From Piscinibacter sp. HJYY11 (GTDB lineage Bacteria > Pseudomonadota > Gammaproteobacteria > Burkholderiales > Burkholderiaceae_C): a stretch of DNA of 64,000 nucleotides. Of the stretch, positions 9,880 through 64,000 are shown in pieces (the first letter of the stretch is position 1; each line of letters begins with the position of its first letter). The position numbers were made by a program, and so were the translations under genes. Below the pieces are notes generated by a model, which was not told the origin of the DNA, did no database searches, and worked only from the letters and a program-made list of their open reading frames with translations. Location of the stretch: contig NZ_JAERQZ010000001.1 of assembly GCF_016735515.1 (NCBI RefSeq), positions 4,997,407 to 5,061,406 of the forward strand. The letters are read 5' to 3'.

Positions 9880-9889
9880 GGGTGTTTGG

Positions 9890-9965
<76 letters not shown>

Positions 9966-31146: not shown

Positions 31147-31218
31147 GACGACCCTTTCCTTGCGAGATGGGGTCGTCCCCCGGCATGAAAAACGCCGGCA
31201 AGGTCGTCCTGGCCGGCG
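31147..31218 (-). promoter_or_regulatory. Guanidine-II (mini-ykkC) riboswitch candidate
   Basis: On the minus strand two hairpins with ACGA tetraloops lie before gdx. P1 (31218-31193) closes AGG-ACGA-CCT with extra outer pairs CGCCGG/CCGGCG, and P2 (31180-31169) is GGGG-ACGA-CCCC. Twin ACGR-loop hairpins define mini-ykkC RNAs. The 3' part of P2, GACGACCC, is complementary over 8 nt to GGGTCGTC at 31154-31147, next to the AAGGAAAGGG ribosome site. This would allow a switch between P2 and an RBS-blocking pair. Confidence 0.8.
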
Positions 31219-46741: not shown

Positions 46742-46761
46742 TACTGTACGTAAATACAGTA
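46742..46761 (+). promoter_or_regulatory. LexA (SOS) box upstream of imuA
   Basis: TACTGT-ACGTAAAT-ACAGTA contains the CTGT-N8-ACAG LexA consensus with perfect 6-bp arms, ending 6 bp before the imuA ATG. Confidence 0.88.
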
Positions 46762-46767: not shown

Positions 46768-47559
46768 ATGGCCACCGCCCAGCTTTTCGCCCCAAACGCC
46801 CCGCTGACCCCCGTGCCGCGGGCCCAGGCGCGGCCGGCCCTGGCGCCCGAAGACCTGCACCCCCAGCTGTGGCGTGCCCACCAGCTCGGGCGCAGCGCCG
46901 AGCGGCCCATCCCCAGCGGCTTCGAGCCGCTCGATGCCGAGCTGCCCGGCGGTGGCTGGCCCTGCCGGGCGCTGACCGAACTGCTGCTGCCGCAGGCCGG
47001 CATCGGCGAGATCCGCCTGCTGGCCGCCTGCCTTGCCCGCGTGCAGCAGGCCGGGCGGCTGGTGATGATGTTCGACCCGCCGGCGGCGGTGTCGGCCCCG
47101 GGCTTGAGCGAGATGGGGCTCGACGTGGCCCAGCTGCTCGTGATCCAGACCCACTTGCAGGTGCATGCCGGGGCCGACCGCCTGTGGGCCCTGGAGCAGG
47201 CGCTGAAGAGCGGCCACGTGGGAGCGGTCGTGGCGTGGATGCCGCCGCGCCTGCGCGCCGAGCGTGTGCGCCGCCTGCAGCTGGCGGCCCATGTGCACGA
47301 CGGGCCGGCCTTCATCTTCCGCGAGCCGGCGGTGCAGGGGCAGGCGAGTGCGGCGCCGCTGCGGCTGGCGCTGCACCCGGCCGGCCCCGACCAGCTGGCG
47401 CTGCGGGTGCTCAAGCGGCGCGGGCCGCCCTTGCTGGCGCCCCTGCACCTGGCCTTGCCGCCGGTGCTGACCGCGGCCGCGGCACGCCGCGCGGAGCTCG
47501 GGCAGGACGAGGGCGCGCTCGCCGGGTTGAGCGCGGCCACCTTCATCAACCTCGTTTGA
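46768..47559 (+). CDS. imuA: Translesion synthesis-associated protein ImuA
   Basis: 263-residue RecA/SulA-like protein. Segments typical of ImuA are PSGFEPLDAELPGGGWPCRA (about residues 51-70), LTELLLPQAGIGEIRLLAAC, RLVMMFDPPAAVSAPGLSEM and LKSGHVGAVVAWMPPRLRAE. It works with ImuB and DnaE2 in damage-induced mutagenesis. The LexA box directly upstream supports SOS control. The ATG at 46768 is used because the LexA box overlaps longer frames. Confidence 0.93.
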   Translation: MATAQLFAPNAPLTPVPRAQARPALAPEDLHPQLWRAHQLGRSAERPIPSGFEPLDAELPGGGWPCRALTELLLPQAGIGEIRLLAACLARVQQAGRLVMMFDPPAAVSAPGLSEMGLDVAQLLVIQTHLQVHAGADRLWALEQALKSGHVGAVVAWMPPRLRAERVRRLQLAAHVHDGPAFIFREPAVQGQASAAPLRLALHPAGPDQLALRVLKRRGPPLLAPLHLALPPVLTAAAARRAELGQDEGALAGLSAATFINLV

Positions 47560-49071: not shown

Positions 49072-49167
49072 ATTTCAGGGGAAACGTTTCCTCAAGTCCG
49101 CCCACCGACCGCCGATAGATTCCTGACGATGCGCCTCGCATCGCTTTGCATTCGTTCAGGACTCGAT

Positions 49168-50658
49168 ATGAAGATCGACAACTTGGCACTGCGCTCTCGC
49201 CTCGTCATCGGCTTTGTGCCGCTGCTGCTCATCGTGGTGGTCAACACCGTCTGGGCCGCCTCCGTCGCCCAGGGCAGCGCCCGCTACTGGATTGCCGCGC
49301 TCGGCGCGGCTGCCATCGCCCTCGGCCTCGCGCTCGCCTGGTGGATCGTGCGCAGCGTGGTCGCGCCGGTGCGAGAAGCCCTCGACGCTGCGCGCCAGAT
49401 CATGGCGGGCGACCTCACGCTCGAATGCACCACCACGCGCCGCGACGAGTTCGGCCAGCTGATGCTCGTGCTGGGCGGCCTGAAGGACTGTCTCTTCAAG
49501 GTGGTGAGCGACGTGCGCACCGGCACCACCACGGTCGCCAGCACCTCCTCGCAGATCAACCGCGACAACACCTCGCTGTCGGAGCGCACCACCACGCAGA
49601 CCGACTCGCTGCAGCAGACGGCCGCGTCGATGGAGCAGATCACCATCACCGTCCGCCAGAACGCCGACAACGCCGAGCAGGCCAACAAGCTCGTGCTCGC
49701 AGCCTCGGGCCATGCGGCCAAGGGCGGCGAGGTGGTGAGCCAGGTCGTGAGCACCATGGGCTCCATCAAGGAGAGCTCGCGCCGCATCGCCGACATCATC
49801 GGCGTGATCGACGGCATCGCCTTCCAGACCAATATCCTCGCGCTCAATGCCGCGGTGGAAGCGGCCCGTGCCGGCGAGCAGGGCCGTGGCTTCGCCGTCG
49901 TCGCCGCCGAAGTGCGCACGCTGGCGCAGCGCTCGGCCACGGCCGCGAAGGAAATCAAGTCGCTGATCGGCGACTCGGTCGACAAGGTCGAGACCGGCAG
50001 CCGCCTCGTCGACGACGCGGGCCGTGCGATGACCGAGATCGTGTCGTCGGTGAAGCACGTGGCCGGCATCATGAAAGAGATGGCCGGTGCCAGCCACGAG
50101 CAGAGCCAGGGCATCCAGTCGGTCAACCAGGCCATCACCGAGATCGACGGCATGGTCCAGCAGAACGCCAAGCTGGTGAAGGACGCGACGCAGACCGCCG
50201 CCACGCTCAACGAGCAGGCGGTCGGCCTCCTGAAATCAGTGGCGGGCTACAACCTCGGCACGCGCGAGCACGGCAGCGCCGAAGAAGCCGAGGCCATGGT
50301 CAAGGCCGGCATCGCCTTCTTCCAGGCGCACGGCAAGCAGGCGCTCATCGACGAGATCAACAAGCTCGGCAAGGGCCAGTTCATCGACCGCGACCTGTAC
50401 CTGATGGCCATCACCATCGACGACTACAAGTTCTGCGCCCACGGCAACAACCCGCGAACGCTCGGCGCGGGCCCGGTCAGCAAGGACGTGGACGGCAAGT
50501 TCTTCGTGAAGGAGATGGCCGAGCTCGCGCGCCGTGGCGGCCAGGACTGGGTGGACTACAAGTGGGCCCACCCGGTGACCAACGAGATCCGGCTCAAGAC
50601 CTCGTACGTGGAGCGCGCAGGCGATCTGGCGGTGGCCTGCGGCATCTACAAGAGCTGA
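49168..50658 (+). CDS. Methyl-accepting chemotaxis protein with C-terminal Cache-like domain
   Basis: 496-residue chemoreceptor. Two membrane segments lie close together (about residues 13-35 and 40-60), leaving almost no periplasmic domain. A HAMP-like linker follows (VVAPVREALDAARQIMAGDL), then the signalling hairpin with tip IDGIAFQTNILALNAAVEAA and RGFAVVAAEVRTLAQRSATA. After about residue 375 a soluble domain (KAGIAFFQAHGKQALIDEIN to DYKFCAHGNNPRTLG and VDYKWAHPVTNEI) resembles Cache_2. Placing the sensor after the signalling domain means it would sense inside the cell. Start MKIDNLAL at 49168. Confidence 0.93.
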   Translation: MKIDNLALRSRLVIGFVPLLLIVVVNTVWAASVAQGSARYWIAALGAAAIALGLALAWWIVRSVVAPVREALDAARQIMAGDLTLECTTTRRDEFGQLMLVLGGLKDCLFKVVSDVRTGTTTVASTSSQINRDNTSLSERTTTQTDSLQQTAASMEQITITVRQNADNAEQANKLVLAASGHAAKGGEVVSQVVSTMGSIKESSRRIADIIGVIDGIAFQTNILALNAAVEAARAGEQGRGFAVVAAEVRTLAQRSATAAKEIKSLIGDSVDKVETGSRLVDDAGRAMTEIVSSVKHVAGIMKEMAGASHEQSQGIQSVNQAITEIDGMVQQNAKLVKDATQTAATLNEQAVGLLKSVAGYNLGTREHGSAEEAEAMVKAGIAFFQAHGKQALIDEINKLGKGQFIDRDLYLMAITIDDYKFCAHGNNPRTLGAGPVSKDVDGKFFVKEMAELARRGGQDWVDYKWAHPVTNEIRLKTSYVERAGDLAVACGIYKS

Positions 50659-53843: not shown

Positions 53844-53929
53844 AGAAATATCAGAGAACCAGCCACTCCCAAGGCAATGCTTGGTGCACCACAAACTACT
53901 GCCTCGATTCCGAGGTGACGTGGCTTCAT
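53756..53929 (-). pseudogene. Distal cassette gene truncated at the IS30 remnant
   Basis: ATG at 53929 follows attC1 by 3 bp. About 29 codons (MKPRHLGIEAVVCGAPSIAL, then GVAGSLIFL) look like the start of a small membrane protein. From about 53843 the frame reads through the antisense of the transposase remnant, so the original 3' part and the cassette's own attC are gone. Confidence 0.55.
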
Positions 53930-53932
53930 GCC

Positions 53933-54001
53933 GTCCAACGTTTGACATGAGAGGCATGACCCGGCTTGCCGGGGCATGTCCTCTCGATGGAAGGGTTAGG
54001 C
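53933..54001 (-). repeat. attC site 1
   Basis: 69-bp imperfect palindrome. Minus-strand R'' GCCTAAC and R' GTTGGAC flank arms containing CCTCTC/GAGAGG and an inner stem CCGGCTTGCCGGG-type loop. Distal-most intact site. Confidence 0.9.
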
Positions 54002-54030
54002 GTCATTTTGCTTGCGCACAAGAGAAGTAC

Positions 54031-54270
54031 TCAGTTTGCTGGTACCGAGCGTTGTTCTTCCCCGCAATCACAGCGGCTGTGATGCGGGTTGGAATGGAAC
54101 TTCACCGTGACTGAACAGCTGACCTGATAGCGAGCCTTTCCCACAGAGGACGGGCCACAAAACAACTCGCAATCGCGGTCTTTCATGCGGACAAAGGCTA
54201 GGCAGCCAAGAAAGACGACTGAGATCAAGGCGAGTACCGCCCAGGCTGCCTTCGATCGAATCAGTTTCAT
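54031..54270 (-). CDS. Cassette gene: anchored/secreted small Cys-rich protein
   Basis: 79 residues. An N-terminal hydrophobic segment (AWAVLALISVVFLGCLAFV, about residues 9-27) may be an anchor or a lipoprotein-like signal. The Cys-containing outer part follows (DRDCELFCGPSSVGKARYQV, CSVTVKF, HHSRCDCGEEQ). It shares a cassette with the ORF at 54321, since no attC lies between them. No family recognised. Confidence 0.55.
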   Translation of the reverse strand: MKLIRSKAAWAVLALISVVFLGCLAFVRMKDRDCELFCGPSSVGKARYQVSCSVTVKFHSNPHHSRCDCGEEQRSVPAN

Positions 54271-54320
54271 AACCAGTCTGACTTGGGACTCGCAACTGTA
54301 GTGACGCGTTCAAGAACGCA

Positions 54321-54479
54321 CTACTCATCTGGCCTGTTCTCTCCGTCGAAGTACATAGATGCGCACATCATGAGCTCCACCAGGAGGCCAAGAGCTCCTA
54401 TGCCAACGGCAGCGCCAGTCCAGGCCATGAGGTAACACGCGCCAGCAATTGCGAACAGGATCCAGGTGGCCTTACTCAT
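54321..54479 (-). CDS. Cassette gene: small membrane protein (52 aa)
   Basis: First ORF after the attC2 core, starting ATG at 54479. Two hydrophobic stretches (WILFAIAGACYLMAWTGAAV and IGALGLLVELMMCASM) and an acidic tail FDGENRPDE. Unknown function; probably co-transcribed with 54031-54270. Confidence 0.5.
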   Translation of the reverse strand: MSKATWILFAIAGACYLMAWTGAAVGIGALGLLVELMMCASMYFDGENRPDE

Positions 54480-54494
54480 GGCGGAGTTGATGAC

Positions 54495-54563
54495 GCCTAA
54501 CGTTTGGCATGAGAGGAGTGACCCGGCTTGCCGGGGCACGTCCTCTCGTTGGAGGGGTTAGGG
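54495..54563 (-). repeat. attC site 2
   Basis: 69 bp. R'' CCCTAAC, R' GTTAGGC on the minus strand; TTTGGCATGAGAGG and CCTCTCGTTGG differ slightly from the other sites. Confidence 0.9.
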
Positions 54564-54914
54564 CTCATGTTTTGGCCGCCCGCGCCCCGTGACTTCCTCG
54601 ATTACCGCAACGGAGCCGGGTTGCAGGAATAGGCTGACCAGAGCAGTAACTGCCACCAACAACCAAAGCAGCGACAGCAGTGGAACGGAAGTCAGAAAGC
54701 CCGCTACCAACAAAACGACGGAGGCCACGAGGCAACACCTCAATAGGCGAGCACCCAAGATGGCCCTGGGCAAGAACTGCGCTGACAAGGTCAGTGTTGC
54801 GTGACAGCGCTCGCATGGCGAGATCCTTGGGTCTCCCCAAAACGGAAAGATTGTGCGAAATGTCTTGCGAGAAACCGGCGTTCCACAGGCTGGGCATGTT
54901 GGATTGGAGTGCAT
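54558..54914 (-). CDS. Cassette gene: zinc-ribbon membrane protein
   Basis: 118 residues. An N-terminal zinc-ribbon-like set, CPACG (about residue 6) and CERCH (about 35), precedes two membrane segments (LRCCLVASVVLLVAGFLTSV and LLSLLWLLVAVTALVSLFL). The TAA stop lies in the attC2 R'' box, as usual for cassette genes. The ATG at 54914 is the first that begins the conserved-looking part; it is 72 bp from attC3. Confidence 0.65.
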   Translation of the reverse strand: MHSNPTCPACGTPVSRKTFRTIFPFWGDPRISPCERCHATLTLSAQFLPRAILGARLLRCCLVASVVLLVAGFLTSVPLLSLLWLLVAVTALVSLFLQPGSVAVIEEVTGRGRPKHEP

Positions 54915-54985
54915 GGTCTCGGACTTGGTCCTAGTTGCCAAAGTTGCGCCGTTCAGAGCGACCCTAGGCGAATGGTGTTCATGAG

Positions 54986-55057
54986 CCCTAACGTTTGACA
55001 TGAGAGGCGGCGCAAGGGCGTAGCCCTTGTGACGTCCTCTCGATGGAAGGGTTAGGC
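54986..55057 (-). repeat. attC site 3
   Basis: 72 bp with the longer loop variant GCAAGGGCGTAGCCCTTGTG. R'' GCCTAAC, R' GTTAGGG on the minus strand. Confidence 0.9.
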
Positions 55058-55076
55058 ATCGCGCGGTGGAGCAGGC

Positions 55077-55319
55077 TCATCGCAAAGCGAAGTAGCCTGC
55101 GATGAGAAGAGCCGAATAGGCAACAACGGCTAGGCGTTTCACCTTGAATAGCCGATTGATCTCCCCGTCTGTGAATACAAAGGAGCGCACGAAGGGGGAA
55201 ACGATAGAAAGTGCCCCCATGGACCCCAGCAGCAAGGTCATAAGCAAGACGTATGCAGTTGTCCCAGCCTGCTTGGAGGGCGCTGTGTACGCGCATGTCG
55301 AGCCTAGGAGCCAAGCCAT
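55077..55319 (-). CDS. Cassette gene: small membrane protein fused to decayed attC
   Basis: 80 residues with two to three hydrophobic segments (TTAYVLLMTLLLGSMGALSI, LAVVAYSALLIAGYFALR). The ATG at 55319 touches attC4, which has lost its R' end. As a result the frame is also open upstream through the attC, and a hybrid protein starting in the attC is possible. No family recognised. Confidence 0.6.
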   Translation of the reverse strand: MAWLLGSTCAYTAPSKQAGTTAYVLLMTLLLGSMGALSIVSPFVRSFVFTDGEINRLFKVKRLAVVAYSALLIAGYFALR

Positions 55320-55377
55320 GTGAGAGGCGGCCGACGGGCGCAGCCCGTTGGACGTCCTCTCGATGGAAGGGTTAGGC
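55317..55377 (-). repeat. attC site 4, decayed (R' end missing)
   Basis: R'' GCCTAAC, CCTTCCATCGAGAGGA and a loop GACGGGCGCAGCCCGTT are present. The other end stops after GCCTCTCACATG: the TCAAAC-GTTAGGC part that holds the recombination point is absent. Confidence 0.8.
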
Positions 55378-55403
55378 ATCGCGTGCTTCGCATCGGCGGT
55401 GGT

Positions 55404-56468
55404 TCAGTGGAACTGAAAGGCGCCAATATCGAAAGGGGTGCTTCGAGGGGTGCCATCGAAGTCGTCAGCCGGCGCGTGCAATTCAGCACCAACGCCTATG
55501 GCCGGAGAGCCCGAGGCTAGGCGGAGATTGTTTGGCGAGGCAACGAACAGTGGATCTGCACGGAGATTGCCAGACTGACCTGTGAGGTCTGCTGTTCCGA
55601 GATAGTCCGTGGCGTTACCGAAGACTATGTTGGCCCGGAAGACGGAAGCAAGGTTGTCCGATCGCGGTGAGAACTCGAATGGGACTTCGACGCCGCGTTC
55701 ATTCCCTGCGATCAGATTGTTGGAGTACCAGTGGGACGCGGTGCTAACGCGTCGGTCGATGTAGATTCCAGCGCGGTTTCCGACCATCGTGTTGTTGGCA
55801 ACAATAGGCGTCACGCCTTCTGGAATGGTCATGTTTACTGCACGGCACCTATTTCCCACAAAGACGTTGTTGGCGATGTAAGGCGAGGAACCATTCACAA
55901 ACGCCAAGACTCCCGACAGATGCTGATCGTCACACTGCGTGTTATGAAAGAGGTTCTTCTGAACGTTCGGTGAGCCATTGAAGCCGAAGAGCTGAGCCCC
56001 ACTCACGGCAATGGTGCTGTCGAAGACATTACCCGAAATCGTCGGCGCCGCGCCAAGTATGTAGAGCGCACCTTGGTAGTCGACGCCGCAATTCCGAACC
56101 GTGAGGCCTGACACGCCAGAGCTGCTGTCCTCCGCGTGATCAAACGTGATAAGCCGCGCCAGGCCTTCGCAGTCGATGACAACACCCGATGGATTGCCTG
56201 TTCCGCGTAGATTTAGCCGCTTTCCCCCGAAGTTCAAGTCACGATTGCCCGCACCGGAATAGAGACCAGGCGCAACCAGTACTGTGTACCCATCCGAAGC
56301 CGATGCGATGGCTGCCGCGATTGTCGGCTGATCAGCCGGAACGCGAACTGTCATGGGAGGAGGAGTAGCCTGTTGTGGCTGGTCGTCCGAGGAGTTCCCG
56401 CCACATCCTGTGAGAGCGAAAAGCAGTGCAAGGGCGATGACGGCTTGGGAATTTCGAGTCACTAGCAT
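55404..56468 (-). CDS. Cassette gene: right-handed beta-helix lipoprotein
   Basis: 354-residue lipoprotein: lipobox LTGC at about residues 19-22. After a Pro-rich spacer comes a parallel beta-helix region of pectate-lyase-like/DUF1565 type: VPADQPTIAAAIASASDGYT, LVAPGLYSGAGNRDLNFGGK, GVSGLTVRNCGVDYQGALYI and NNVFVGNRCRAVNMTIPEGV. Repeated N-x-F/I-x-x-N coils follow. It ends PFDIGAFQFH, a motif of choice-of-anchor/beta-helix proteins. This is one of the largest genes in the array and likely surface-exposed. Confidence 0.8.
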   Translation of the reverse strand: MLVTRNSQAVIALALLFALTGCGGNSSDDQPQQATPPPMTVRVPADQPTIAAAIASASDGYTVLVAPGLYSGAGNRDLNFGGKRLNLRGTGNPSGVVIDCEGLARLITFDHAEDSSSGVSGLTVRNCGVDYQGALYILGAAPTISGNVFDSTIAVSGAQLFGFNGSPNVQKNLFHNTQCDDQHLSGVLAFVNGSSPYIANNVFVGNRCRAVNMTIPEGVTPIVANNTMVGNRAGIYIDRRVSTASHWYSNNLIAGNERGVEVPFEFSPRSDNLASVFRANIVFGNATDYLGTADLTGQSGNLRADPLFVASPNNLRLASGSPAIGVGAELHAPADDFDGTPRSTPFDIGAFQFH

Positions 56469-56499
56469 CTCCGAGATTGTTGAGGAGCCTACTCGCGAG

Positions 56500-56568
56500 G
56501 CCTAACGTTTGACATGAGAGGCTCGACCCGGCTTGCCGGGGCGAGTCCTCTCGATGGAAGGGTTAGGC
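56500..56568 (-). repeat. attC site 5
   Basis: 69 bp; R'' GCCTAAC and R' GTTAGGC, short-loop variant. Confidence 0.92.
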
Positions 56569-56850
56569 TGCATTCTTGCTCACCCAGAGAGCTAGCAGCG
56601 TGATGCCGAGAGCTGCCTGAACCCACAGGGCCACTCGCGTGACCGTGAGAAGCCTCCTGCCTAGCGATGAGCGCGACCGCAGCGTAGCCCCAATGCCCAG
56701 GATGGGGAAAAAAGCCACAACCCAGGCGAACCAGGCAACACCAACCCCCATGCAACCGAAGCTTTCGCACCGCAGACGCCATATGAGAACGGCGGTGAAG
56801 GCTAGCGCCAGTACTGCGACGGCGTAGACGCCTGCAAGGACCTTACTCAC
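56563..56850 (-). CDS. Cassette gene: three-segment membrane protein
   Basis: 95 residues with three membrane segments: LAGVYAVAVLALAFTAVLIW, GVAWFAWVVAFFPILGIG and VALWVQAALGITLLALWV. CESFGCMG lies between the first two. TAA is supplied by attC5. The 116 bp between its ATG and attC6 contain no other ORF of note. Confidence 0.65.
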   Translation of the reverse strand: MSKVLAGVYAVAVLALAFTAVLIWRLRCESFGCMGVGVAWFAWVVAFFPILGIGATLRSRSSLGRRLLTVTRVALWVQAALGITLLALWVSKNAA

Positions 56851-56966
56851 TGAGTTGGAGCCTTCATGTGATGCGCTTGCCGAAGCCGAAGCAGTCTCTT
56901 CGTCGCGTTGAGGCGCCCAAGCCGGTCTCTAAGAAGGCCCCCTCTTCTTGCATTACGCTCTATGCA

Positions 56967-57038
56967 GCCTAGCGTTTGACATGAGAGGCGGCGCAAGGGC
57001 GTAGCCCTTGTGACGTCCTCTCGATGGAAAGGTTGGGT
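56967..57038 (-). repeat. attC site 6 (altered core)
   Basis: 72-bp long-loop variant. Minus-strand R' is GCTAGGC instead of GTTAGGC, a change in the conserved GTT where IntI cuts, so this site may be poorly active. R'' is ACCCAAC. Confidence 0.85.
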
Positions 57039-57056
57039 GTCATCGCATGCACTCCT

Positions 57057-57609
57057 CTACGAACTTCTGCATATGAGTTCATGTTGTATAAGTTCAGATA
57101 GGTCGTCGGTTACGAAGCCGTGGAATCCTTCATGGGTGGAACTGAGAGCCGAGGTGACTAAATCTCTGCATGTCAGCACCCATGGGTTGTTGCCGATGGT
57201 GGCGGAATAGTTGATAGGCACATCGCTGCGCTCAAGCGCAGATGGGAAGAACGTTTCGTAGGCATCGAGCGAATAGCGGATGAAAACGGAGAACTGACTT
57301 AGCCGTTCTTCAATCTTGAGGTAGGTGCTCCTGTCTTGGAGGTACGTTGCGGATTGAGCGAGAGCTTGAATGTCGTGCTAATAGGAACGGATCTGCTTGT
57401 AGACAGCTTTCGGCTCCTTGTCGACTTGTTGCAGGACGATGTGGCACTTGAGCACGCATTCGCAAGCGAGGAGCAGATCGACGAATGACTTAATTCTTCC
57501 GGTCTTGTGACGCTGGGCTTCCCAAAGAAGATCAAATCTCTCCAGGAAATCATGAGCGTCGCGAGTGGCTTGCGACCGTATGCAGAACGCTGAGCGGTGC
57601 GGTTTCCAT
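57057..57609 (-). pseudogene. Cassette gene broken by a frameshift and an amber codon
   Basis: GGGAGG precedes ATG at 57609 (METAPLSVLHT...), but that frame stops after 19 codons. The neighbouring frame (ATRDAHDFLERFDLLWEAQR, HKTGRIKSFVDLLLACE) runs on to a TAG at 57378-57380. It continues in the same frame for 106 more codons (HDIQALAQSATYLQDRSTYL, ERLSQFSVFIRYSLDAYETF, NYSATIGNNPWVLTCRDLVT) to TAG at 57057. Both parts look like one protein of about 180 residues. The HDIQAL region is reminiscent of HEPN proteins, a weak hint. Confidence 0.6.
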
Positions 57610-57625
57610 GGTTCCTCCCTATGAC

Positions 57626-57694
57626 GCCCAACGTTTGACATGAGAGGCGTGACCCGGCTTGCCGGGGCACGTCCTCCCGATGCAAGGGTTGGGC
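57626..57694 (-). repeat. attC site 7
   Basis: 69 bp; R'' GCCCAAC, R' GTTGGGC; the arm carries CGGGAGGAC in place of CGAGAGGAC. Confidence 0.9.
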
Positions 57695-57695
57695 G

Positions 57696-58451
57696 TCATG
57701 CGCCGCGCCTCATGAGCTTTTGCATATGGCTTTGCGGATCGGACAGGAACTTACGCGTTACCTTGAAATGCTCAGTGTCCTCGTACGCAACCTTTGAAAC
57801 GCCGTTCTTGTCGCATTGATAGATGCACGCATCCGGGTACGCCATGAGGATTGGCGAGTGCGTAGCGATGATGAACTGGGAGTTGTCCAGAATCAGGTCG
57901 TGAATGCGAGACAAGACTGCAATCTGTCTCTGCGGAGACAGGGCAGCCTCAGGCTCGTCAAGGATGTAAAGGCCTTGCCCACCAAACCGCCTCGTCATGA
58001 GGGCAAGGAATGACTCACCGTGCGACTGCTCATGTAGCGAACGTCCACCATAAGAATTGATGACGGGGGGACCACCTGCTGGCTCTTCATCAAGCCGCTC
58101 GATTTCTGTCGCAACGTTGAAGAAGCTCTCTGCTCGCAGGAAGAAGCCATCTCGCGGCGACCGAAAGCCTTTGGCAATGCGGAGATATTCATGCAGTTCC
58201 GAATGCGAGCGTCGTGTACCGAAGCTGAAGTTCTTTGTTCCACCTTCAGCGTTGAAGCCAAGCGAAACTGCGATCGCTTCGAGGAGAGTCGACTTTCCGG
58301 AGCCGTTCTCACCAATGAAGTACGTCATTCGCGGGTGCATCTCGATTTGCTCAAGCGATCGAACCGCTGGCAAGGAGAAGGGATAGCGGTCGAATGATTC
58401 GACCTTCTCTCGCCTGAGTGTTACTCGACCGACGTATTGGGATGAAATCAT
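57696..58451 (-). CDS. Cassette gene: ABC-type AAA family ATPase
   Basis: 251-residue complete ABC/SMC-like ATPase of the AAA (PF13304-like) group. Walker A GENGSGKST (about residues 46-54), a signature-like LHEQSHGESFLALMTRR, Walker B GLYILDEPEAALSP, and H-loop FIIATHSPILMAYPDA. The start MISSQYVGR at 58451 lies 4 bp after attC8. Such stand-alone ATPases often form part of defence or stress systems with a partner nuclease; no partner is in this cassette. TGA stop lies 2 bp before attC7. Confidence 0.85.
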   Translation of the reverse strand: MISSQYVGRVTLRREKVESFDRYPFSLPAVRSLEQIEMHPRMTYFIGENGSGKSTLLEAIAVSLGFNAEGGTKNFSFGTRRSHSELHEYLRIAKGFRSPRDGFFLRAESFFNVATEIERLDEEPAGGPPVINSYGGRSLHEQSHGESFLALMTRRFGGQGLYILDEPEAALSPQRQIAVLSRIHDLILDNSQFIIATHSPILMAYPDACIYQCDKNGVSKVAYEDTEHFKVTRKFLSDPQSHMQKLMRRGA

Positions 58452-58454
58452 GAC

Positions 58455-58526
58455 GCCCAACGTTTGACATGAGAGGCGGCGCAAGGGCGTAGCCCTTGTG
58501 ACGTCCTCTCAATGGAAGGGTTAGGC
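58455..58526 (-). repeat. attC site 8
   Basis: 72-bp long-loop variant; R'' GCCTAAC, R' GTTGGGC. The arm reads CCATTGAGAGG. Confidence 0.9.
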
Positions 58527-58572
58527 GGCGCTTTATGCATGGCACCACCAAACGAAGCGAAAGTCGAGTTTT

Positions 58573-58896
58573 CTAGCTGCGACCGCTGCTAGAGGTGTGC
58601 TTTGCATCAACTATTTCCTTCCACTCTAGGAGCAACTTGGCCACCTCTCTTGCCTGCTGGGGATTGGCATTGAAGCCCATTCGCTCGGTTGCGATTGATT
58701 CCAAGTAGGTCGCAATTTCTTCGGCTGATGCCTCTTCTTTAAGAAGGCGAAAGACTTGCGGAAGATAGCCGTGATATTCGTCCCTGGCCATCGGCGCATT
58801 GGCAACTCCGATTGGGTCCCATACGGAGTGCAAGACTTCATCCGTTCTTTGGTACAGCTCCAAGTCGGCTGGACTCAGCTTCTCGCCCATCGACAT
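58573..58896 (-). CDS. Cassette gene: hypothetical acidic protein
   Basis: 107 residues, soluble and mainly helical, beginning MSMGEKLSPADLELYQRTDE with VLHSVWDPIGVANAP and DEYHGYLPQVFRLLKEEASA, then EEIATYLESIATERMGFNAN. This pattern of a helical protein with a WDPIG motif recalls small conserved cassette or immunity-like proteins, but no family is asserted. ATG 20 bp from attC9. Confidence 0.65.
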   Translation of the reverse strand: MSMGEKLSPADLELYQRTDEVLHSVWDPIGVANAPMARDEYHGYLPQVFRLLKEEASAEEIATYLESIATERMGFNANPQQAREVAKLLLEWKEIVDAKHTSSSGRS

Positions 58897-58916
58897 CTCC
58901 GCGAAGTGACTGCGAC

Positions 58917-58985
58917 GCCTAACGTTTGAGATGAGAGGCGGCGCCCGGCTTGCCGGGTGACGTCCTCTCGATGGAAGGGTTAGGC
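58917..58985 (-). repeat. attC site 9
   Basis: 69 bp; R'' GCCTAAC, R' GTTAGGC; inner stem CCCGGCAAGCCGGG. Confidence 0.92.
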
Positions 58986-58998
58986 GGCTCGTGATACT

Positions 58999-59481
58999 TC
59001 ATGCTCTTGCCTCTAGAACCGCCTCAAGCAGCTCGAACTGCCTCTGGAACTCCGGGGCACATAGGGAATCTACTTTGCGCACTTGATCGACGAGCCCAGC
59101 AGTCTCCTTCGCCTGAGAGAGAAAAGAACGGTTGCGGATCTTGAAATCAATGAACGGCCCCTGCGCCGAGGCATTGACGCCGCAATAGAACGAGATGCTG
59201 CGTGCGGCAAGAAATGCAACTTCGGCGTCTTGATCTGACGCCGAGTCGAGCAACAGGCGCTGCGCCACTCGGCCGTGACTAGGCTGGAGAACGGAGACGA
59301 GGCATGCCCGCCAACTTGCATTGCGTTTTGCGCGAATGGTCACCAGCTCCGTCCATTGCTGATTCGAAAGTGATTGCAGCAGTGCTGATGCGTCCTCGGC
59401 ATCACCGCCATCTGCCCAGGCCAGTGAGTCGCAGTCAGACCGCCTTAGGAGAACATCAAGGACTTCAACTTCAGATTGCAT
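58999..59481 (-). CDS. Cassette gene: hypothetical helical protein
   Basis: 160 residues, soluble, predicted mostly helical: MQSEVEVLDVLLRRSDCDSL, LLQSLSNQQWTELVTIRAKR, VAQRLLLDSASDQDAEVAFL. The repeated helical pairs suggest a HEAT-like or immunity-type fold; this is inference. No known family. Confidence 0.6.
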   Translation of the reverse strand: MQSEVEVLDVLLRRSDCDSLAWADGGDAEDASALLQSLSNQQWTELVTIRAKRNASWRACLVSVLQPSHGRVAQRLLLDSASDQDAEVAFLAARSISFYCGVNASAQGPFIDFKIRNRSFLSQAKETAGLVDQVRKVDSLCAPEFQRQFELLEAVLEARA

Positions 59482-59503
59482 GGTCCGTGGGTCGCTTCAG
59501 GCC

Positions 59504-59572
59504 GCCTAACGTTTGACATGAGAGGCGTCACCCGGCTTGCCGGGTGACGTCCTCTCGATGGAAGGGTTAGGC
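59504..59572 (-). repeat. attC site 10
   Basis: 69 bp; R'' GCCTAAC, R' GTTAGGC; inner stem CCCGGCAAGCCGGG. Confidence 0.92.
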
Positions 59573-59597
59573 CTCGGCGCGAGTTGCACCTTTCGAC

Positions 59598-60233
59598 CTA
59601 AGTGATCCATGAAGACACCAAAATCAATGAACCGCGCTTGCAGGATGGGCACGAATTCTTTGGTTCGACTTCGACGGTGAGGCTTCCTGCACGTCCGCAA
59701 AGGGCGCAGCTCAATACTTCGCCTTCTTGGGAGATGTTCTGCCCGGTTTGCCATGGCTGGCGAGTTTCCCCAAATTGGCGTTCAGTAGTGAAGAGCAACC
59801 GATCAGACTGAGGTGGTCCGCAGTTTGCATTTGGCACTTCGCCTACAGTTTCGACAGTCAGTTGAACACCTAGCGGCTCTAGCTCTTTGCGTATTGCTTC
59901 AACTGTATGCGGGCCAGTTCTCTCACAAAGAACGATTGGAAGGGATCTGACTGCCTCCAGTGCTTCGTTGTAGCTGACATTTCGTTCCTTTCTGAGCCAT
60001 CTTCTAGCGATGACACTTCTTGCGTCAGAGGGCGCCGACTCAACGGATACCTTTAGGAGCGGGTAGGTCTTTGGACCTCGGTCACGCATTGCATGCTCAA
60101 TTGCGTGCTGCTCACCGCAAGCTCGGCAAGCTAGAAGCGTACGACCGGTGTACCCATCGTGTATGCCGTGATAGTGATACCACCCGACTGAAAGTCGAAG
60201 GTCACAGTCGTTGCACTTCAGGTCAGTCGGCAT
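59598..60233 (-). CDS. Cassette gene: double zinc-ribbon protein with L7/L12-like middle
   Basis: 211 residues. Two CxxC pairs at the N-terminus (CNDC about residue 7, CRAC about 37) and two at the C-terminus (CALC, CPSC) suggest two zinc ribbons. The middle segment VSYNEALEAVRSLPIVLCER, then VEAIRKELEPLGVQLTVETV, resembles the ribosomal bL12 C-terminal/ClpS-like fold. Such domains occur in small cassette and phage-associated proteins. Start MPTDLKCND at 60233, 7 bp from attC11. Confidence 0.65.
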   Translation of the reverse strand: MPTDLKCNDCDLRLSVGWYHYHGIHDGYTGRTLLACRACGEQHAIEHAMRDRGPKTYPLLKVSVESAPSDARSVIARRWLRKERNVSYNEALEAVRSLPIVLCERTGPHTVEAIRKELEPLGVQLTVETVGEVPNANCGPPQSDRLLFTTERQFGETRQPWQTGQNISQEGEVLSCALCGRAGSLTVEVEPKNSCPSCKRGSLILVSSWIT

Positions 60234-60239
60234 GCTGAG

Positions 60240-60308
60240 GCCTAACGTTTGACATGAGAGGCATGACCCGGCTTGCCGGGGCATGTTCTCTCGATGGAAG
60301 GGTTAGGC
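60240..60308 (-). repeat. attC site 11
   Basis: 69 bp; R'' GCCTAAC, R' GTTAGGC; short-loop variant. Confidence 0.92.
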
Positions 60309-61454
60309 GTCACGAGCGCGACCATCTGCTGGCTTGGACTCTTCAAGCAGTAAGGGCGCATCCTGATCAATCTGAAGCGATGTTTCAGATGCCGACATTG
60401 CTGCACTACGAAGCTTTCTTAGTTCCTCTATTCGTGCGCGGAGCTTTGTGTTTGCTTCCAGCAGCGCCTCATCTTGAGGCTCCCCTTCTTTTTCTTCAGG
60501 ATCTTCGGGTTCGTCCGGAACACCGACGTTGATCTCGACTTGCGCCCCTTGGTTTAGTCGGCGAGCAAGATAGTGCAGGCCTTGTCTGAACTGAGTTTCG
60601 ACTTCGTTTCTTCTGCCTTTGTCTTCTACGCGACTGAACTTCTCGGTGAGATCGGATGCGATTTTCTTGAGTTCTGCGGTGACCTTCTTCTCGACCTCAT
60701 CTGAGATGAGCTTGAGAATCTTTTCGGGCACTTCCTTCTCGCCAAGCTGCTTCTGAAGGTTCTTGATTTCTAGGTTGCTCTTGAAAAGCGTGACGATCCT
60801 CTCTATAGCGACCGTCCACAAAACTACCTGCTCGACTGGGATCTCAAGGAAAACTTGCCACCAGCTAGAAGAGATAGTGGAAATCTTGGGGTCATAGCTG
60901 TTCTCGCCAGTGAGTTCGTTTATGGCTCTTGCCAGATTGGAGATCTTGTCGAACTCCTTGGTTAACTCCGGCAGGGTCTCTCCAACGACTTCACGTGGTA
61001 GCAGTAGCCCGACTTCAGCCCGTTCATCTTCAACAGACGTGTACTCCGCTGAAAGTCCGCGGAGGGACGAGTCCAGTTGTTTGACTAGAGTGATCTTCGA
61101 TAGATAAGTCTTAGAGAGCTTCCTAAGCGCGCTGGAGAGGGCGGCGCTATCGAACCCGTTTGACGCCACAATGTGCTCGACTTCTTTTCTCAGTTCAGGT
61201 GGAAACAGAGAGCGAAGAGAAAGGTCGTCGATTACCTGTTGGGCATATGGCTGATGAAGCTCCGCTGGAACAGCTTCTATGCTGTCTAGGGCGGCTGCGA
61301 GCTTGGTTCGAAACTCAGTGATGTGAGATTCAGTTCTTGTTTGTGTGTACTGATCCAAGGCAGATGCTGCCGCGTCAAGTTGATCAGTTAGCTTTGCTTC
61401 CCGAAAGTGGGTTTCGATGTGATCAACAACTGCATGAAATCGCCCAAGGTGCAT
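60303..61454 (-). CDS. Cassette gene: coiled-coil protein
   Basis: 383 residues, the longest cassette protein. Helical throughout with heptad-rich stretches (KNLQKQLGEKEVPEKILKLI, EALLEANTKLRARIEELRKL) and an acidic linker (EPEDPEEKEGEPQDE). One hydrophobic patch, WWQVFLEIPVEQVVLWTVAI (about residues 210-230), may be a membrane-associated helix. The ATG at 61454 lies 42 bp from attC12; stop TAA is in attC11. GC content is clearly lower than in the chromosomal genes. No family recognised. Confidence 0.7.
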   Translation of the reverse strand: MHLGRFHAVVDHIETHFREAKLTDQLDAAASALDQYTQTRTESHITEFRTKLAAALDSIEAVPAELHQPYAQQVIDDLSLRSLFPPELRKEVEHIVASNGFDSAALSSALRKLSKTYLSKITLVKQLDSSLRGLSAEYTSVEDERAEVGLLLPREVVGETLPELTKEFDKISNLARAINELTGENSYDPKISTISSSWWQVFLEIPVEQVVLWTVAIERIVTLFKSNLEIKNLQKQLGEKEVPEKILKLISDEVEKKVTAELKKIASDLTEKFSRVEDKGRRNEVETQFRQGLHYLARRLNQGAQVEINVGVPDEPEDPEEKEGEPQDEALLEANTKLRARIEELRKLRSAAMSASETSLQIDQDAPLLLEESKPADGRARDA

Positions 61455-61495
61455 TTGGTCTCCTCCATATGTTCTAGCCCCAGAACTATTGTGAC

Positions 61496-61564
61496 GCCTA
61501 ACGTTTGACATGAGAGGCCCGACCCGGCTTGCCGGGGCGGGTCCTCTCGATGGAAGGGTTAGGC
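61496..61564 (-). repeat. attC site 12
   Basis: 69 bp; R'' GCCTAAC, R' GTTAGGC; short-loop variant. Confidence 0.92.
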
Positions 61565-62017
61565 GGCATCTTGCAATACAGCCAATGCACGCCTCTTTAG
61601 CGCTGCACTCTGAGGGCGCCACATTTGTAGCGCTCTGATATGAAGAAGGCAGAGATCTGGTGAGACCTGGGTAAATACTTCGGCTTGGAGCCGACGAGCC
61701 AGGCGAATTATTGGATAGCGGCGCAGGATTGAGTGATACCAAAGCTCAATTTCACCGTAGCGCTGCAGATGAAAGCAATGCTGCGTGAGAAGTTCATCAA
61801 AGAGCTCCCGCTCGAACACGGAGCGCCGTAGAACTCGTATGCCCATCGCTCTTGCAGCAGGATGGCTTGATGACAACGCAATAGCCAAAAGCCGAATCTT
61901 TTGGCTGCCGTGAGCGGCTCTTACAGAAGAGGCAAGCAGATTCTCGAGCGTACTGCCTAGCGGGAACGCCTCAAGCGCTGATTCCAAGCTTTGCGCGGTG
62001 AGCTGATCGGTACTCAT
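61559..62017 (-). CDS. Cassette gene: hypothetical helical protein
   Basis: 152 residues, soluble, Leu/Arg-rich and helical: QSLESALEAFPLGSTLENLL, SQKIRLLAIALSSSHPAARA, ELFDELLTQHCFHLQRYGEI. HEAT-like helical repeats are possible. ATG at 62017 is 3 bp from attC13; the TAA stop is part of attC12. No family recognised. Confidence 0.65.
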   Translation of the reverse strand: MSTDQLTAQSLESALEAFPLGSTLENLLASSVRAAHGSQKIRLLAIALSSSHPAARAMGIRVLRRSVFERELFDELLTQHCFHLQRYGEIELWYHSILRRYPIIRLARRLQAEVFTQVSPDLCLLHIRALQMWRPQSAALKRRALAVLQDAA

Positions 62018-62020
62018 GCA

Positions 62021-62089
62021 GCCTAACGTTTGACATGAGAGGCCCGACCCGGCTTGCCGGGGCGGGTCCTCTCGATGGAAGGGTTAGAG
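62021..62089 (-). repeat. attC site 13
   Basis: 69 bp; R'' CTCTAAC, R' GTTAGGC. Confidence 0.92.
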
Positions 62090-62611
62090 GTCACCGCGTG
62101 CTACGTGATCCGGAGGCGACAGACGACAAATGAGGCTCGCAAAGGCGCTGGACTTGAGTACCAAGAAGATTGCGAACAGGGCCTCAAAAAAGGCCACAGA
62201 GACATCGAGCTTTGCTTCTGGAGCCAAGGTAGAGAACGCGGAGCCAGCCTCAAAGAAAATGAATCCTCGAAATAGCAGCCAGACGAGGGCTGGAAGCGCC
62301 TTGGCGAGAAGCCAAAGACCTAGCAGGCCACAGCCAACGCGCGCCAGATCGTAGGCGGGGGCTCGTATGAGATTTTCGTGCGACGTCCTTGGAACCAGTT
62401 TGTGCGCGACGAACATTGGAAAGAACCAGAGAGCGACTGCTCCGAGCAAATATGCCCCGCCGAGGGCATAGGCTACCGCTGCCTTTGATCCTGTTTCTAC
62501 TGGCAAGCTTGATAGTGCCGCCGGTATGGACGTGAAGTACCCAATGCTTGTGAGCGCAAGCCAGAGTGCAAATAGCCGGAGACCTATCCCAATGATCTGC
62601 TGTGGTGTCAT
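62084..62611 (-). CDS. Cassette gene: polytopic membrane protein
   Basis: 175 residues with four membrane segments: GIGLRLFALWLALTSIGYFT, AYALGGAYLLGAVALWFF, VGCGLLGLWLLAKALPALVW and FFEALFAIFLVLKSSAFASL. ATG at 62611 lies 5 bp from attC14; stop TAA inside attC13. Unknown function. Confidence 0.68.
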   Translation of the reverse strand: MTPQQIIGIGLRLFALWLALTSIGYFTSIPAALSSLPVETGSKAAVAYALGGAYLLGAVALWFFPMFVAHKLVPRTSHENLIRAPAYDLARVGCGLLGLWLLAKALPALVWLLFRGFIFFEAGSAFSTLAPEAKLDVSVAFFEALFAIFLVLKSSAFASLICRLSPPDHVARGDL

Positions 62612-62616
62612 GTGAC

Positions 62617-62685
62617 CTCTAACGTTTGACATGAGAGGCGGCGCCCGGCTTGCCGGGCGACGTCCTCTCGATGGAAGGGTTGGGC
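62617..62685 (-). repeat. attC site 14
   Basis: 69 bp; R'' GCCCAAC, R' GTTAGAG. The CTCTAAC end matches the CTCTAAC end of attC13 on its other side, as expected for a cassette that carried its own core. Confidence 0.92.
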
Positions 62686-62686
62686 G

Positions 62687-62989
62687 TCACGCGGGGTGCG
62701 CAGAGAACCGAACGCCTAGAGCGCGAGCGACCTTGAGGATGGTGTCGAGGCGCGGCTTGGCTCCTGGAGCTAGAGCTTTGTAGAGACTCTCTCGACCAAG
62801 CCCCGCGTCCTTGGCGACCTGCGCCATGCCCTTGGCACGAGCGATATCGCTAAGCGCGAGGAGCAAAAGATCGGTGTCTTCGGTTTCTAGAACCGCCGTC
62901 ATGTACTCGGCAATAGCGTCTTCATCCGTGAGATAGCGAGCCGCATCGAACGGGAGAAGCTTTGCCTTGGCTTTGGAAGTACTCATCAT
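62687..62989 (-). CDS. higA: Cassette gene: HigA-like antitoxin
   Basis: 100-residue Xre-type helix-turn-helix antitoxin of the addiction-module antidote (HigA) group. HTH region: LSDIARAKGMAQVAKDAGLG, then RESLYKALAPGAKPRLDTIL and KVARALGVRFS. It follows the toxin gene with a 4-bp overlap and ends 2 bp before attC14. It should neutralise the toxin and repress the shared promoter. Confidence 0.92.
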   Translation of the reverse strand: MMSTSKAKAKLLPFDAARYLTDEDAIAEYMTAVLETEDTDLLLLALSDIARAKGMAQVAKDAGLGRESLYKALAPGAKPRLDTILKVARALGVRFSAHPA

Positions 62990-63285
62990 TCAAGCTCCAA
63001 TTGCTGCAAGATCTTCTGCGCTCGCTTGATATCTCTTGCCTGGGTTGATTTATCACCGCCAGCGAGCATGACGATGAGGATGTTCTGGCGCTTCGTGAAG
63101 TACAGGCGATAGCCTGGGCCAAACGCGACACGCATCTCCGATACCTCGCCTCCGACTGACTTCCAGTCGCCAAGATTTCCTGCTTCGGCTAGCCGTAGCC
63201 TGGCGACGATGCGCAACTGCGCTTTGATGTCTTTGAGGCCATCAAGCCAGTCTTGGAACTCTTGAGTCTGACGTACCGTGAACAT
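62986..63285 (-). CDS. higB: Cassette gene: HigB/RelE-family toxin
   Basis: 99-residue RelE/ParE-superfamily toxin of the phage-derived Gp49-like/HigB group. Typical segments are FTVRQTQEFQDWLDGLKDIK, ARIVARLRLAEAGNLGDW-like order (here VARLRLAEAGNLGDWKSV), SEMRVAFGPGYRLYFTKRQN and ILIVMLAGGDKSTQARDIKR. It probably cleaves ribosome-bound mRNA. Toxin-first order is normal for HigBA. The pair has its own promoter, unusual among cassettes but typical for toxin-antitoxin cassettes, and would stabilise the array. Confidence 0.92.
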   Translation of the reverse strand: MFTVRQTQEFQDWLDGLKDIKAQLRIVARLRLAEAGNLGDWKSVGGEVSEMRVAFGPGYRLYFTKRQNILIVMLAGGDKSTQARDIKRAQKILQQLELE

Positions 63286-63289
63286 GCTT

Positions 63290-63319
63290 GAACTGTATCT
63301 ATATGGATACGAATGTCAA
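63290..63319 (-). promoter_or_regulatory. higBA promoter with operator palindrome
   Basis: Minus strand: -35 TTGACA (63319-63314), 16-bp spacer, -10-like TACAGT. The spacer and -10 contain GTATC-catata-GATAC (63295-63310), a perfect 5-bp dyad suited to HigA autorepression. Confidence 0.7.
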
Positions 63320-63343
63320 GCAGAGGGTTTGCGACTTCGTGAC

Positions 63344-63412
63344 GCTCAACGTTTGACATGAGAGGCCCGACCCGGCTTGCCGGGGCGGGTCCTCTCGATG
63401 GAAGGGTTAGGC
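63344..63412 (-). repeat. attC site 15
   Basis: 69 bp; R'' GCCTAAC, R' GTTGAGC. Confidence 0.92.
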
Positions 63413-63452
63413 GTCGTATGGCACGGCGGTCTACTGAGGCTGCCGTCTCCAG

Positions 63453-63812
63453 TCATAGCGACGACAGCAAAGCTAGAGTGCCCCCCGCCACAAGCGTGAC
63501 GAGAAGTCCGGTGGTTGTGATCAGAACCTTTACCCAGGGTCGGAGGGGCGGCGCCTGAGACGTCCAAGTCACGGCGACAGCAATGAACGCGGTTAGCACC
63601 GAAGCTGATAGAGCGACCATGCCGCCAGTCGCGAACATCTCTACGTTTGCCATGCACTCCCTGCCGCAACCACTTCCCGAAACTCCGATGCCAACTAAAG
63701 CGAACCCGAGAAAGCCAACGCACAAACCGACGCTTCCGAACAGCACCGCTGCGGCTATCCAGGCTCTCCCGTCTGAAGCGATCGCCGACAGGTTTCGGGT
63801 GGCTAGATTCAT
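63453..63812 (-). CDS. Cassette gene: small membrane protein
   Basis: 119 residues with three membrane segments: AWIAAAVLFGSVGLCVGFLG, GGMVALSASVLTAFIAVAVT and VLITTTGLLVTLVAGGTLAL. GSGCGRECMA sits in the first loop. ATG at 63812 follows GGAGAAAAAA; it is 38 bp from attC16. Unknown function. Confidence 0.65.
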   Translation of the reverse strand: MNLATRNLSAIASDGRAWIAAAVLFGSVGLCVGFLGFALVGIGVSGSGCGRECMANVEMFATGGMVALSASVLTAFIAVAVTWTSQAPPLRPWVKVLITTTGLLVTLVAGGTLALLSSL

Positions 63813-63850
63813 TTTTTTCTCCACACGATACGCGTTGCGAGGAGTTCGAC

Positions 63851-63919
63851 GCCTAACGTTTGATATGAGAGGCCCGGCCCGGCTTGCCGGGGCGGGTCCT
63901 CTCGATGGAAGGGTTAGGC
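63851..63919 (-). repeat. attC site 16
   Basis: 69 bp; R'' GCCTAAC, R' GTTAGGC; nearest site to the presumed integrase end in this window. Confidence 0.92.
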
Positions 63920-64000
63920 CGCATTGGGCTTGCAAGGAACACTGAAGTCAACGTGGTAGTGCTCATCATGGCGAACCCAGGGCTTGCCCTTCATAAAGGG
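63914..64000 (-). CDS. Cassette gene, C-terminal part only; MepA-like peptidase tail possible
   Basis: The last 28 codons of a protein that continues beyond the window and ends at the TAA of attC16. The visible tail contains KGKPWVRHDEHYHVDFSVPC. The H-x-H in HYHVDFSVPC resembles the C-terminal W-x-x-H-D-x-H-x-H-V block of penicillin-insensitive murein endopeptidases (MepA, M74). That match is short, so the family is only a suggestion. Confidence 0.5.
   Translation of the reverse strand, partial: PFMKGKPWVRHDEHYHVDFSVPCKPNAA

Follow-up and report, generated by a model that had tools for sequence, protein, structure and literature searches.

At the right end of a 64,000-nt stretch of the Piscinibacter sp. 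HJYY11 genome (G000; C1:4997407-5061406, referred to as the window), a long array of attC sites is found without an integrase. This raises the question of which integron the array belongs to and where its platform is located. Taken by themselves, the repeats form an ordinary chromosomal integron array. The locus deserves attention for the tie between intI and dnaE2, the imuAB flank, the very large arrays of its relatives in a disfavoured orientation and a second integron, in inverted position, that shares the attC family. The 16 attC sites of the window likely form the distal part of integron A, a sedentary chromosomal integron (SCI) with vertical inheritance that is situated between imuAB and dnaE2 and has its platform on the next contig. 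This reading is built on the sites, genes, boxes, gene order in relatives and integrase clade described below, and for the orientation on the dnaA position and skew.

The first-pass annotation had reported a sixteen-site attC array at 53933-63919 and no integrase in view. Three analyses confirmed the array, which extends over window positions 53933-63920 and encloses 15 complete cassettes. The repeat search recovered 12 + 4 = 16 copies. A covariance model built from 44 attC sites of the G000 genome gave 16 matches on a single strand with 45.7 to 99.1 bits, scores that are not independent as the training set included the window sites. The remaining window matches at E ≤ 0.01 were opposite-strand readings of 12 of those 16 sites. 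A scan with an arm pattern found 15 of the 16 sites in window 53901-64000, none in window 1-53900 and none in 100 mononucleotide shuffles of window 53901-64000.

All sites are located on the minus strand. Their coordinates in the covariance model, which take in one base beyond the box ends, are 53933-54002 (attC 1, the distal array end; 93.0 bits), 54495-54564 (attC 2; 79.0), 54986-55058 (attC 3; 82.3), 55302-55378 (attC 4; 45.7), 56500-56569 (attC 5; 96.1), 56967-57039 (attC 6; 77.5), 57626-57695 (attC 7; 90.0), 58455-58527 (attC 8; 78.6), 58917-58986 (attC 9; 93.5), 59504-59573 (attC 10; 99.1), 60240-60309 (attC 11; 94.5), 61496-61565 (attC 12; 97.0), 62021-62090 (attC 13; 91.6), 62617-62686 (attC 14; 91.7), 63344-63413 (attC 15; 89.7) and 63851-63920 (attC 16; 93.0). 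The ends fit RYYYAAC/GTTRRRY and the bottom strand is predicted to be foldable. The length of 69-72 bp given earlier is true of 15 sites, which measure 69 or 72 bp between the box ends, whereas attC 4 has 77 bp with one decayed arm and was missed by the arm pattern. The stop codons at 54558, 56563, 60303, 61559, 62084 and 63914 were all found to be the TAA within the R'' box, as had been noted.

The covariance-model searches covered 224 kb of selected stretches at E ≤ 0.01, namely the window, the end stretches of contigs C1 and C2, C1:20001-100000 and C2:516869-536868. A total of 79 attC matches was obtained, 16 in the window, 5 on the left and 32 on the right of C2 and 26 on the left of C1, and zero in C1:20001-100000 and C2:516869-536868. 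The arm pattern, which misses the most strongly decayed sites at the left end of C1, found 23 of the 26. At that end (L021, 595-9795), 15 decayed attC sites form a block between intact sites. Compared to the consensus, 12 arm-pattern sites of this block carry 34 AT-to-GC and 15 GC-to-AT changes, and the GC content of its cassettes is higher (0.586), as if they were ageing toward the genome composition.

C1 has a total size of 5,061,406 bp and its end is the right edge of the window, which lies inside a cassette. The array is seen without an integrase because C1 breaks off there. The earlier statement thus holds for the window, but two intact integrases are encoded on contig C2 (556,868 bp), one per end. 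The left and right contig ends are labelled C1L, C1R, C2L and C2R. With respect to the TIGR02249 cut-off for integron integrases (265 bits), IntI-A (C2:4866-5810, plus strand) scored 478 bits and IntI-B (C2:536633-537574, minus strand) 453 bits. The two proteins are 51.7% identical. Both align over their full length with 2A3V, a Vibrio integrase, and retain its six catalytic residues R135, K160, H267, R270, H293 and Y302, whose numbering was counted in the alignment. The alignment of IntI-A extends across the IntI-specific region and contains one single-residue gap. In a survey of 60 genomes, an intI over the cut-off was found in 30, and two intI genes in two (G000 and G020).

attI candidates adjoin both intI genes. 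The platform on C2L comprises five attC sites, the attI-A candidate, a small conserved open reading frame (ORF), a LexA box, intI-A and dnaE2. The candidate box of attI-A, CTAACGTGATAT, is located at the array boundary in all five genomes compared. The LexA box CTGTATGAATATACAG lies 49 bp upstream of intI-A and is the sole such box in C2:1-20000. The start of dnaE2 is found 57 bp past intI-A, and the gene product was identified as an error-prone polymerase by NF004225 (1443 bits). The small ORF (L018, 4337-4759) is divergent from intI; it has 36 homologs, one of them named as DUF5710-containing and most of them nameless. The integrases linked to dnaE2 often possess, as judged by eye, a proline-rich C-terminal tail (L018, 5800-6002, and related loci) with a motif like PPRVxMPxAxYxV or REPxAxYxV, while most of the integrases in a set of 80 loci end about 15 residues past the same point.

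On the other side of the array, the window contains imuA and imuB. A LexA-type box, CTGTACGTAAATACAG (46744-46759, plus strand), is found 8 bp before the start of imuA and is the sole CTGTN8ACAG match in the window. The gene imuA (46768-47559, plus strand) encodes a translesion synthesis-associated protein of 263 amino acids, with 195 bits for NF033429 (cut-off 150) scored on a reading from 46720. A start near 46720 was rejected, as the gene would then include the LexA box; the start codon is the ATG at 46768. The Y-family polymerase-like gene imuB (47578-49071, plus strand) matches PF00817 above the cut-off (27.6 bits) and no NCBIfam model, and shows 78-81% identity to the homologs that occupy the corresponding position in G001, G003 and G009. 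It is followed by a gene for a methyl-accepting chemotaxis protein (49129-50658, plus strand), for which all NCBIfam matches are under their cut-offs.

G001, G003 and G009 are the three genomes of the genus in which an array of the integron-A type was spanned. Their gene order is imuB, receptor, array, small ORF, intI and dnaE2, as in G000. The conserved receptor gene separates imuB from the array, the distal array end adjoins the homolog of window ~47.5-51.8 kb, and intI-A and dnaE2 are found at the other end. imuA is also present in G003 and G009, and the G001 stretch starts just before imuB. This is a fixed locus with the same flanks in all three, whereas G002, G006 and G010 carry other integrases elsewhere. 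The integrase of G010 belongs to another clade and lies in another genomic place. In G000, too, the array probably sits between imuAB and intI-dnaE2, which are parts of the SOS mutasome. The array, intI, the attI candidates and the synteny in the three relatives support the earlier reading as a sedentary chromosomal integron.

The order intI then dnaE2 was identified in 18 of 111 intI loci, 6 of 31 in a first set and 12 of 80 in a second; the loci are not independent, since about 50 of the 80 are near-copies of one integrase. Spacers range between -82 and +66 bp in 16 of the 18 (60 bp in G003), with 1238 bp in L115 and -167 bp in L120, where DnaE2 matches in pieces. A strict LexA box is located near the intI start in 15 of the 18 loci, and the three loci without a box include L106 (no upstream sequence) and L061 (82 bp upstream). 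Near dnaE2 no LexA box was found in any of the 18 linked loci, compared to a box at the gene start in all five unlinked dnaE2 of the genus. The chance of a box per upstream region was 0.56% in mononucleotide shuffles. For the IntI tree, sequences shorter than 300 residues were removed, as were copies and near-copies; of 111 rows, 71 were left before the 97% filter and 59 were used. Seventeen of the 18 dnaE2-linked integrases fall into one clade and L115 is found elsewhere in the tree. The linkage requires 2 label changes on the tree compared to a mean of 15.6 for shuffled labels, and none of 500 shuffles was as low.

These features are consistent with a mechanism in which DNA damage would inactivate LexA and a single transcript would then provide both IntI-A and the error-prone DnaE2, with ImuA-ImuB derived from a second LexA-controlled unit. 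IntI-A, presumably active, would excise cassettes by attC x attC recombination, and these may be reinserted at attI-A beside the cassette promoter. It would act on the folded attC bottom strand, here the lagging-strand template. It is quite possible, though, that the adjacency reflects descent only, with no functional coupling and with the LexA box acting on intI just as it does elsewhere among integrons. It is common for intI genes that lack a linked dnaE2 to have an upstream LexA box, as seen among the near-identical integrases that dominate the 80-locus set, and such boxes precede intI in V. cholerae and in mobile integrons (PMC3108266). Against this, the (nearly) overlapping adjacency was kept while DnaE2 diverged to about 60% identity, and dnaE2 has its own LexA box in 0 of 18 linked and 5 of 5 unlinked cases.

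The placement of intI and attI to the right of position 64000, as proposed earlier, is very probable given the TIGR02249 scores and the attI candidates beside both genes, but the contig break leaves the link to either integrase indirect. C1R and C1L stop within the 3' part, and C2L and C2R within the 5' part, of one cassette type that we take to be MepA-like. The 5' ends are found at C2:3-203 and C2:556687-556866. A complete third copy is present at C1:15973-16671; mapped on it, about 0.40-0.42 kb are missing per join. The cassette copies are 97.5% identical over 157 bp between C1R and C1L and 96.9% over 260 bp between C2L and C2R. Since each of the four contig ends falls within a copy of this cassette type, two pairings are possible and the assembly leaves the owner integrase undecided. 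Either pairing results in two integrons facing each other, with their integrases about 530 kb apart. The rRNA copy number of the genome is one, which is uninformative on read length.

The second integron is inverted relative to integron A and has its own integrase and attI candidate and the same attC family. IntI-B belongs to another clade, with a long branch (0.67), and is not sister to the integrases of G010 and G006. No LexA box was found within 400 bp upstream of intI-B, and the sequence beside the attI R box differs from that of integron A. The gene is located near guaA and a gene for a 503-residue tyrosine recombinase. Beyond C1L, a MobP1-like relaxase match under the cut-off was found, and SSB- and ParA-like genes were seen by eye. 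This suggests that the IntI-B integron may have arrived on an integrating element. The homolog of C1:4914868-4993325 follows guaA in G001 and G003, and in G000 it is found to the left of the conserved imuAB flank, about 14 kb away. As this region is not beside guaA in G000, at least one rearrangement must have occurred, which is unexplained; a search for a second guaA end that would mark an island border gave no match.

With C1R joined to C2R and C1L to C2L, the 557-kb segment would be inverted and the window array would be the distal part of integron B. Both joins are permitted by the assembly, a decayed cassette at C1L has relatives in IntI-A arrays, and one cassette is common to C2R and the window with 97.4% identity. 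The decayed cassette is repeated several times in the arrays of the relatives and so marks no single array; an assignment of C1L to IntI-A by this cassette was dropped for the same reason. In the three spanned relatives, the imuAB flank is beside the array and intI-A at its opposite end. The synteny in G001, G003 and G009 therefore favours IntI-A as the owner of the window array, which makes the IntI-B pairing unlikely.

Several points weigh against integron A at an SOS mutasome locus. No read or contig spans the probable C1R-C2L junction and the cassette type at the end of C2R is the same, which would physically allow IntI-B to own the window array. The support of the dnaE2-linked clade is moderate (90/74). 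Among the eight genomes of the genus with an intI over the cut-off, five are dnaE2-linked (G000, G001, G003, G007 and G009) and three are not (G002, G006 and G010), which means that not all members of the genus have the locus. No DnaE2 match was found flanking the primary imuB (within 1.5 kb) in the 18 genomes with an ImuB match, of 19 searched, and contiguous imuA-imuB-dnaE2 was seen only as a paralogous operon (C1:93773-98926 and G008). Directly past intI-A there is a weak hairpin resembling a terminator (L018:6012; 1 found, 1.1 expected), and a search for a sigma-70-like promoter at intI-A gave no match.

The canonical gene order of the mutasome is imuA-imuB-dnaE2, as also seen in the paralogous operon of G000. 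This operon (L025, 13773-18926) encodes a DnaE2 with 54% identity, and no strict LexA box was found in L025. At the main locus the three genes are not contiguous, as imuB is located in the window and dnaE2 on C2 past the array. On the same contig, imuB and dnaE2 are separated by about 229 kb in G010 and about 297 kb in G005. For Piscinibacter aquaticus, imuB is found about 1.35 Mb from the intI locus, provided that C1 is the contig of L120. Integron A may have been inserted into an ancestral imuA-imuB-dnaE2 operon, a split that we infer from the canonical gene order and not from an outgroup.

An integrase-less attC cluster (CALIN), severed from any platform, would agree with the TIGR02249 matches of C1, which are all under the cut-off; it is very improbable, as C1 ends in mid-cassette and C2 opens with the 5' part of the cassette, followed by attC, the attI candidate and intI within 6 kb. 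Dispersed palindromic repeats merely resembling attC (REP/BIME-like, for repetitive extragenic palindromes and bacterial interspersed mosaic elements) share the palindromic form and near-identical arms and can practically be dismissed in view of the R box ends, the one short gene per repeat in a single orientation, the intI link and the 46-255 such sites beside intI in the relatives. C2 as a separate replicon was rejected. Self-closure of either contig would place arrays tail to tail, or head to head without an attI. A single dnaA is present on C1 (no search was aimed at plasmid-type replication genes), and intI-A and guaA, from the two ends of C2, share one 5-Mb contig in G001 and G003.

For integron A, the orientation to replication was determined in four species, assuming an oriC near dnaA and a terminus roughly opposite. 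The dnaA gene is located at C1:3284702 in G000, 3518136 in G001, 5557193 in G003 and 3786063 in G009, and the array lies 1.5-1.8 Mb from it on the shorter arc in all four genomes. In G000, G001, G003 and G009, the dnaA position and the skew place the attC bottom strand on the template of the lagging strand. The skew used was the GC skew at third codon positions, taken as the mean of both gene strands, which is noisy and replaced a raw GC skew that was noisy as well. On the two sides of dnaA it was +0.021 and -0.035 in G000, +0.034 and -0.038 in G001 and -0.026 and +0.018 in G003; for G009, on the array side only, it was +0.049. These averages agree with the orientation, weakly for G003. Stretches with the expected sign numbered 8 of 11 and 6 of 7 around dnaA, 3 of 7 on C2 (an eighth is without value) and 3 of 5 at C1:20-320 kb in G000, 5 of 6 and 4 of 5 in G001, 4 of 8 and 4 of 5 in G003 and 4 of 5 in G009. 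The flank stretches L180 and L181 of G003 are strongly opposite in skew. Because half of the stretches on one side have the wrong sign, the orientation of G003 depends mainly on dnaA.

According to PMC5371416, the bottom strand is on the leading-strand template in 25 of 30 SCIs, the large ones with up to 200 cassettes, and the size and stability of SCIs are linked to the recombining attC strand being on the leading template. The five inverse SCIs described there are from Xanthomonas and have at most 22 cassettes (PMC5371416). An inversion of the V. cholerae array led to more excision and a fitness cost (PMC11023631). Integron A departs from the leading-template rule for large SCIs in all four species. 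It contains 21 sites in G000, 46 in G009, 156 in G003 and 255 in G001, where the last three are arm-pattern counts and a single site among the 156 of G003 lies on the opposite strand. The exception to the relation of size and orientation is thus formed by the relatives, and integron A of G000 is inside the published range. Array B, with 32 + 26 sites in the favoured pairing, has the leading-template orientation.

The fold probability was calculated by our own definition, which differs from the published pfold, and scored for sites with an intact L box (18/20, 29/32, 11/23, 238/255, 143/156 and 42/46). For the 18 sites of array A the median was 0.84 for the bottom and 0.69 for the top strand. 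The medians of the clean arrays were 0.80-0.90 for the bottom strand and nearly equal, 0.65-0.89, for the top strand. The genus thus appears to hold inverse-oriented arrays of 156 and 255 sites with good predicted folding, which makes the orientation rule testable on a natural exception.

A joint reading combines a functional intI-dnaE2 module, flipping of the 557-kb segment and an orientation tolerated through SOS gating; we regard it as improbable and put it forward tentatively. If true, SOS would produce the integrase together with a polymerase that helps in resolving the replication-dependent, single-stranded intermediates of attC x attI recombination, and cassette shuffling and point mutagenesis would be one switch. 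The two inverted arrays with a shared cassette would allow the 557-kb segment to flip and cassette tails to be swapped between platforms. The unusual orientation of very large arrays would be tolerated since recombination is switch-gated.

As noted in the first-pass annotation, almost all of the cassette genes are on the minus strand, which is true for the longest ATG ORF in all 15 complete window cassettes. The mean GC content of the cassettes is 0.553 compared to 0.67 for the whole window. Recognisable genes encode a beta-helix protein, an SMC-like ATPase and a toxin-antitoxin pair, and the majority is without a family. All of the following are located on the minus strand. The cassette at 54003-54494 has small ORFs without a family (54031-54270 and 54321-54476). 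It is followed by a gene with a zinc-ribbon match under the cut-off and its stop inside attC (54558-55001), a cassette without a family (55059-55301), whose ORF at 55077-55379 extends into attC 4, and a gene for a right-handed beta-helix/DUF1565 protein (55404-56468). Genes without a family are found at 56563-56850, 58999-59481, 59598-60284 (start within attC 11), 61559-62017 and 62084-62632 (both with their stop inside attC) and 63453-63815. The cassette at 57040-57625 lacks a long ORF, the longest ATG ORF having 84 residues. An AAA_15/SMC-like ATPase resembling those of defence systems is encoded at 57696-58484, with the listed ORF start within attC 8. PADLOC, applied to ten proteins, gave ATPase-type matches for two and no recognisable defence system. 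The cassette at 58528-58916 is the one with a counterpart at C2R (L020:8949-9337), 97.4% identical across all 389 bp. A coiled-looking ORF of 381 residues with a ParB match under the cut-off is found in the cassette at 60310-61495. The two-gene toxin-antitoxin cassette (62687-63285) encodes an HI1420-type antidote (62687-62989; 126 bits) and a Gp49-like protein (62986-63285; 24.0 bits). The 3' end of the MepA-like endopeptidase cassette (63914-64000) is truncated by the contig end. In L020, the adjacent cassettes at 3161-3651 and 3725-4215 are identical over 491 bp.

Two further features of the window are a tRNA at 9893-9965 (window 9877-9965), located at a synteny break compared to G003 and G009, and a Guanidine-II riboswitch at 31168-31215 with 33.9 bits, barely above the gathering score of 32.

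Through the gene-to-gene tie of an integron integrase to the mutagenic polymerase of the SOS response, kept across a clade, one regulator would come to control two evolvability systems. No report of such a tie was found for integrons with dnaE2, imuB or error-prone polymerases at the level of titles and abstract openings, with subscription journals mostly uncovered. IntI-A is about 70% identical to widespread proteobacterial integrases of the 80-locus set and sister to them in the tree; we take these to be of class 1 integrons and their betaproteobacterial chromosomal relatives. Integron A differs from this group in its long array of a single attC family, the dnaE2 behind intI and the C-terminal tail of IntI-A. 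Compared to the imuA-imuB-dnaE2 SOS mutasome operon, all three genes and the LexA boxes are present, whereas the integron separates imuB from dnaE2, which here follows intI.

The Vibrio cholerae superintegron (IntIA/IntI4, VCR sites) is likewise chromosomal with many near-identical attC sites, an IntI that aligns end to end with 2A3V and, as reported in PMC3108266, a LexA box before intI. In contrast to it, dnaE2 is located after intI, imuAB is found at the other flank and a second intact integron is present in the genome. The bottom strand of Vibrio SCIs is always on the leading template according to PMC5371416, and on the lagging template here. The latter orientation is shared with the inverse chromosomal integrons of Xanthomonas, which have at most 22 cassettes in the same source (PMC5371416) compared to 156 sites in integron A of G003 and 255 in that of G001.

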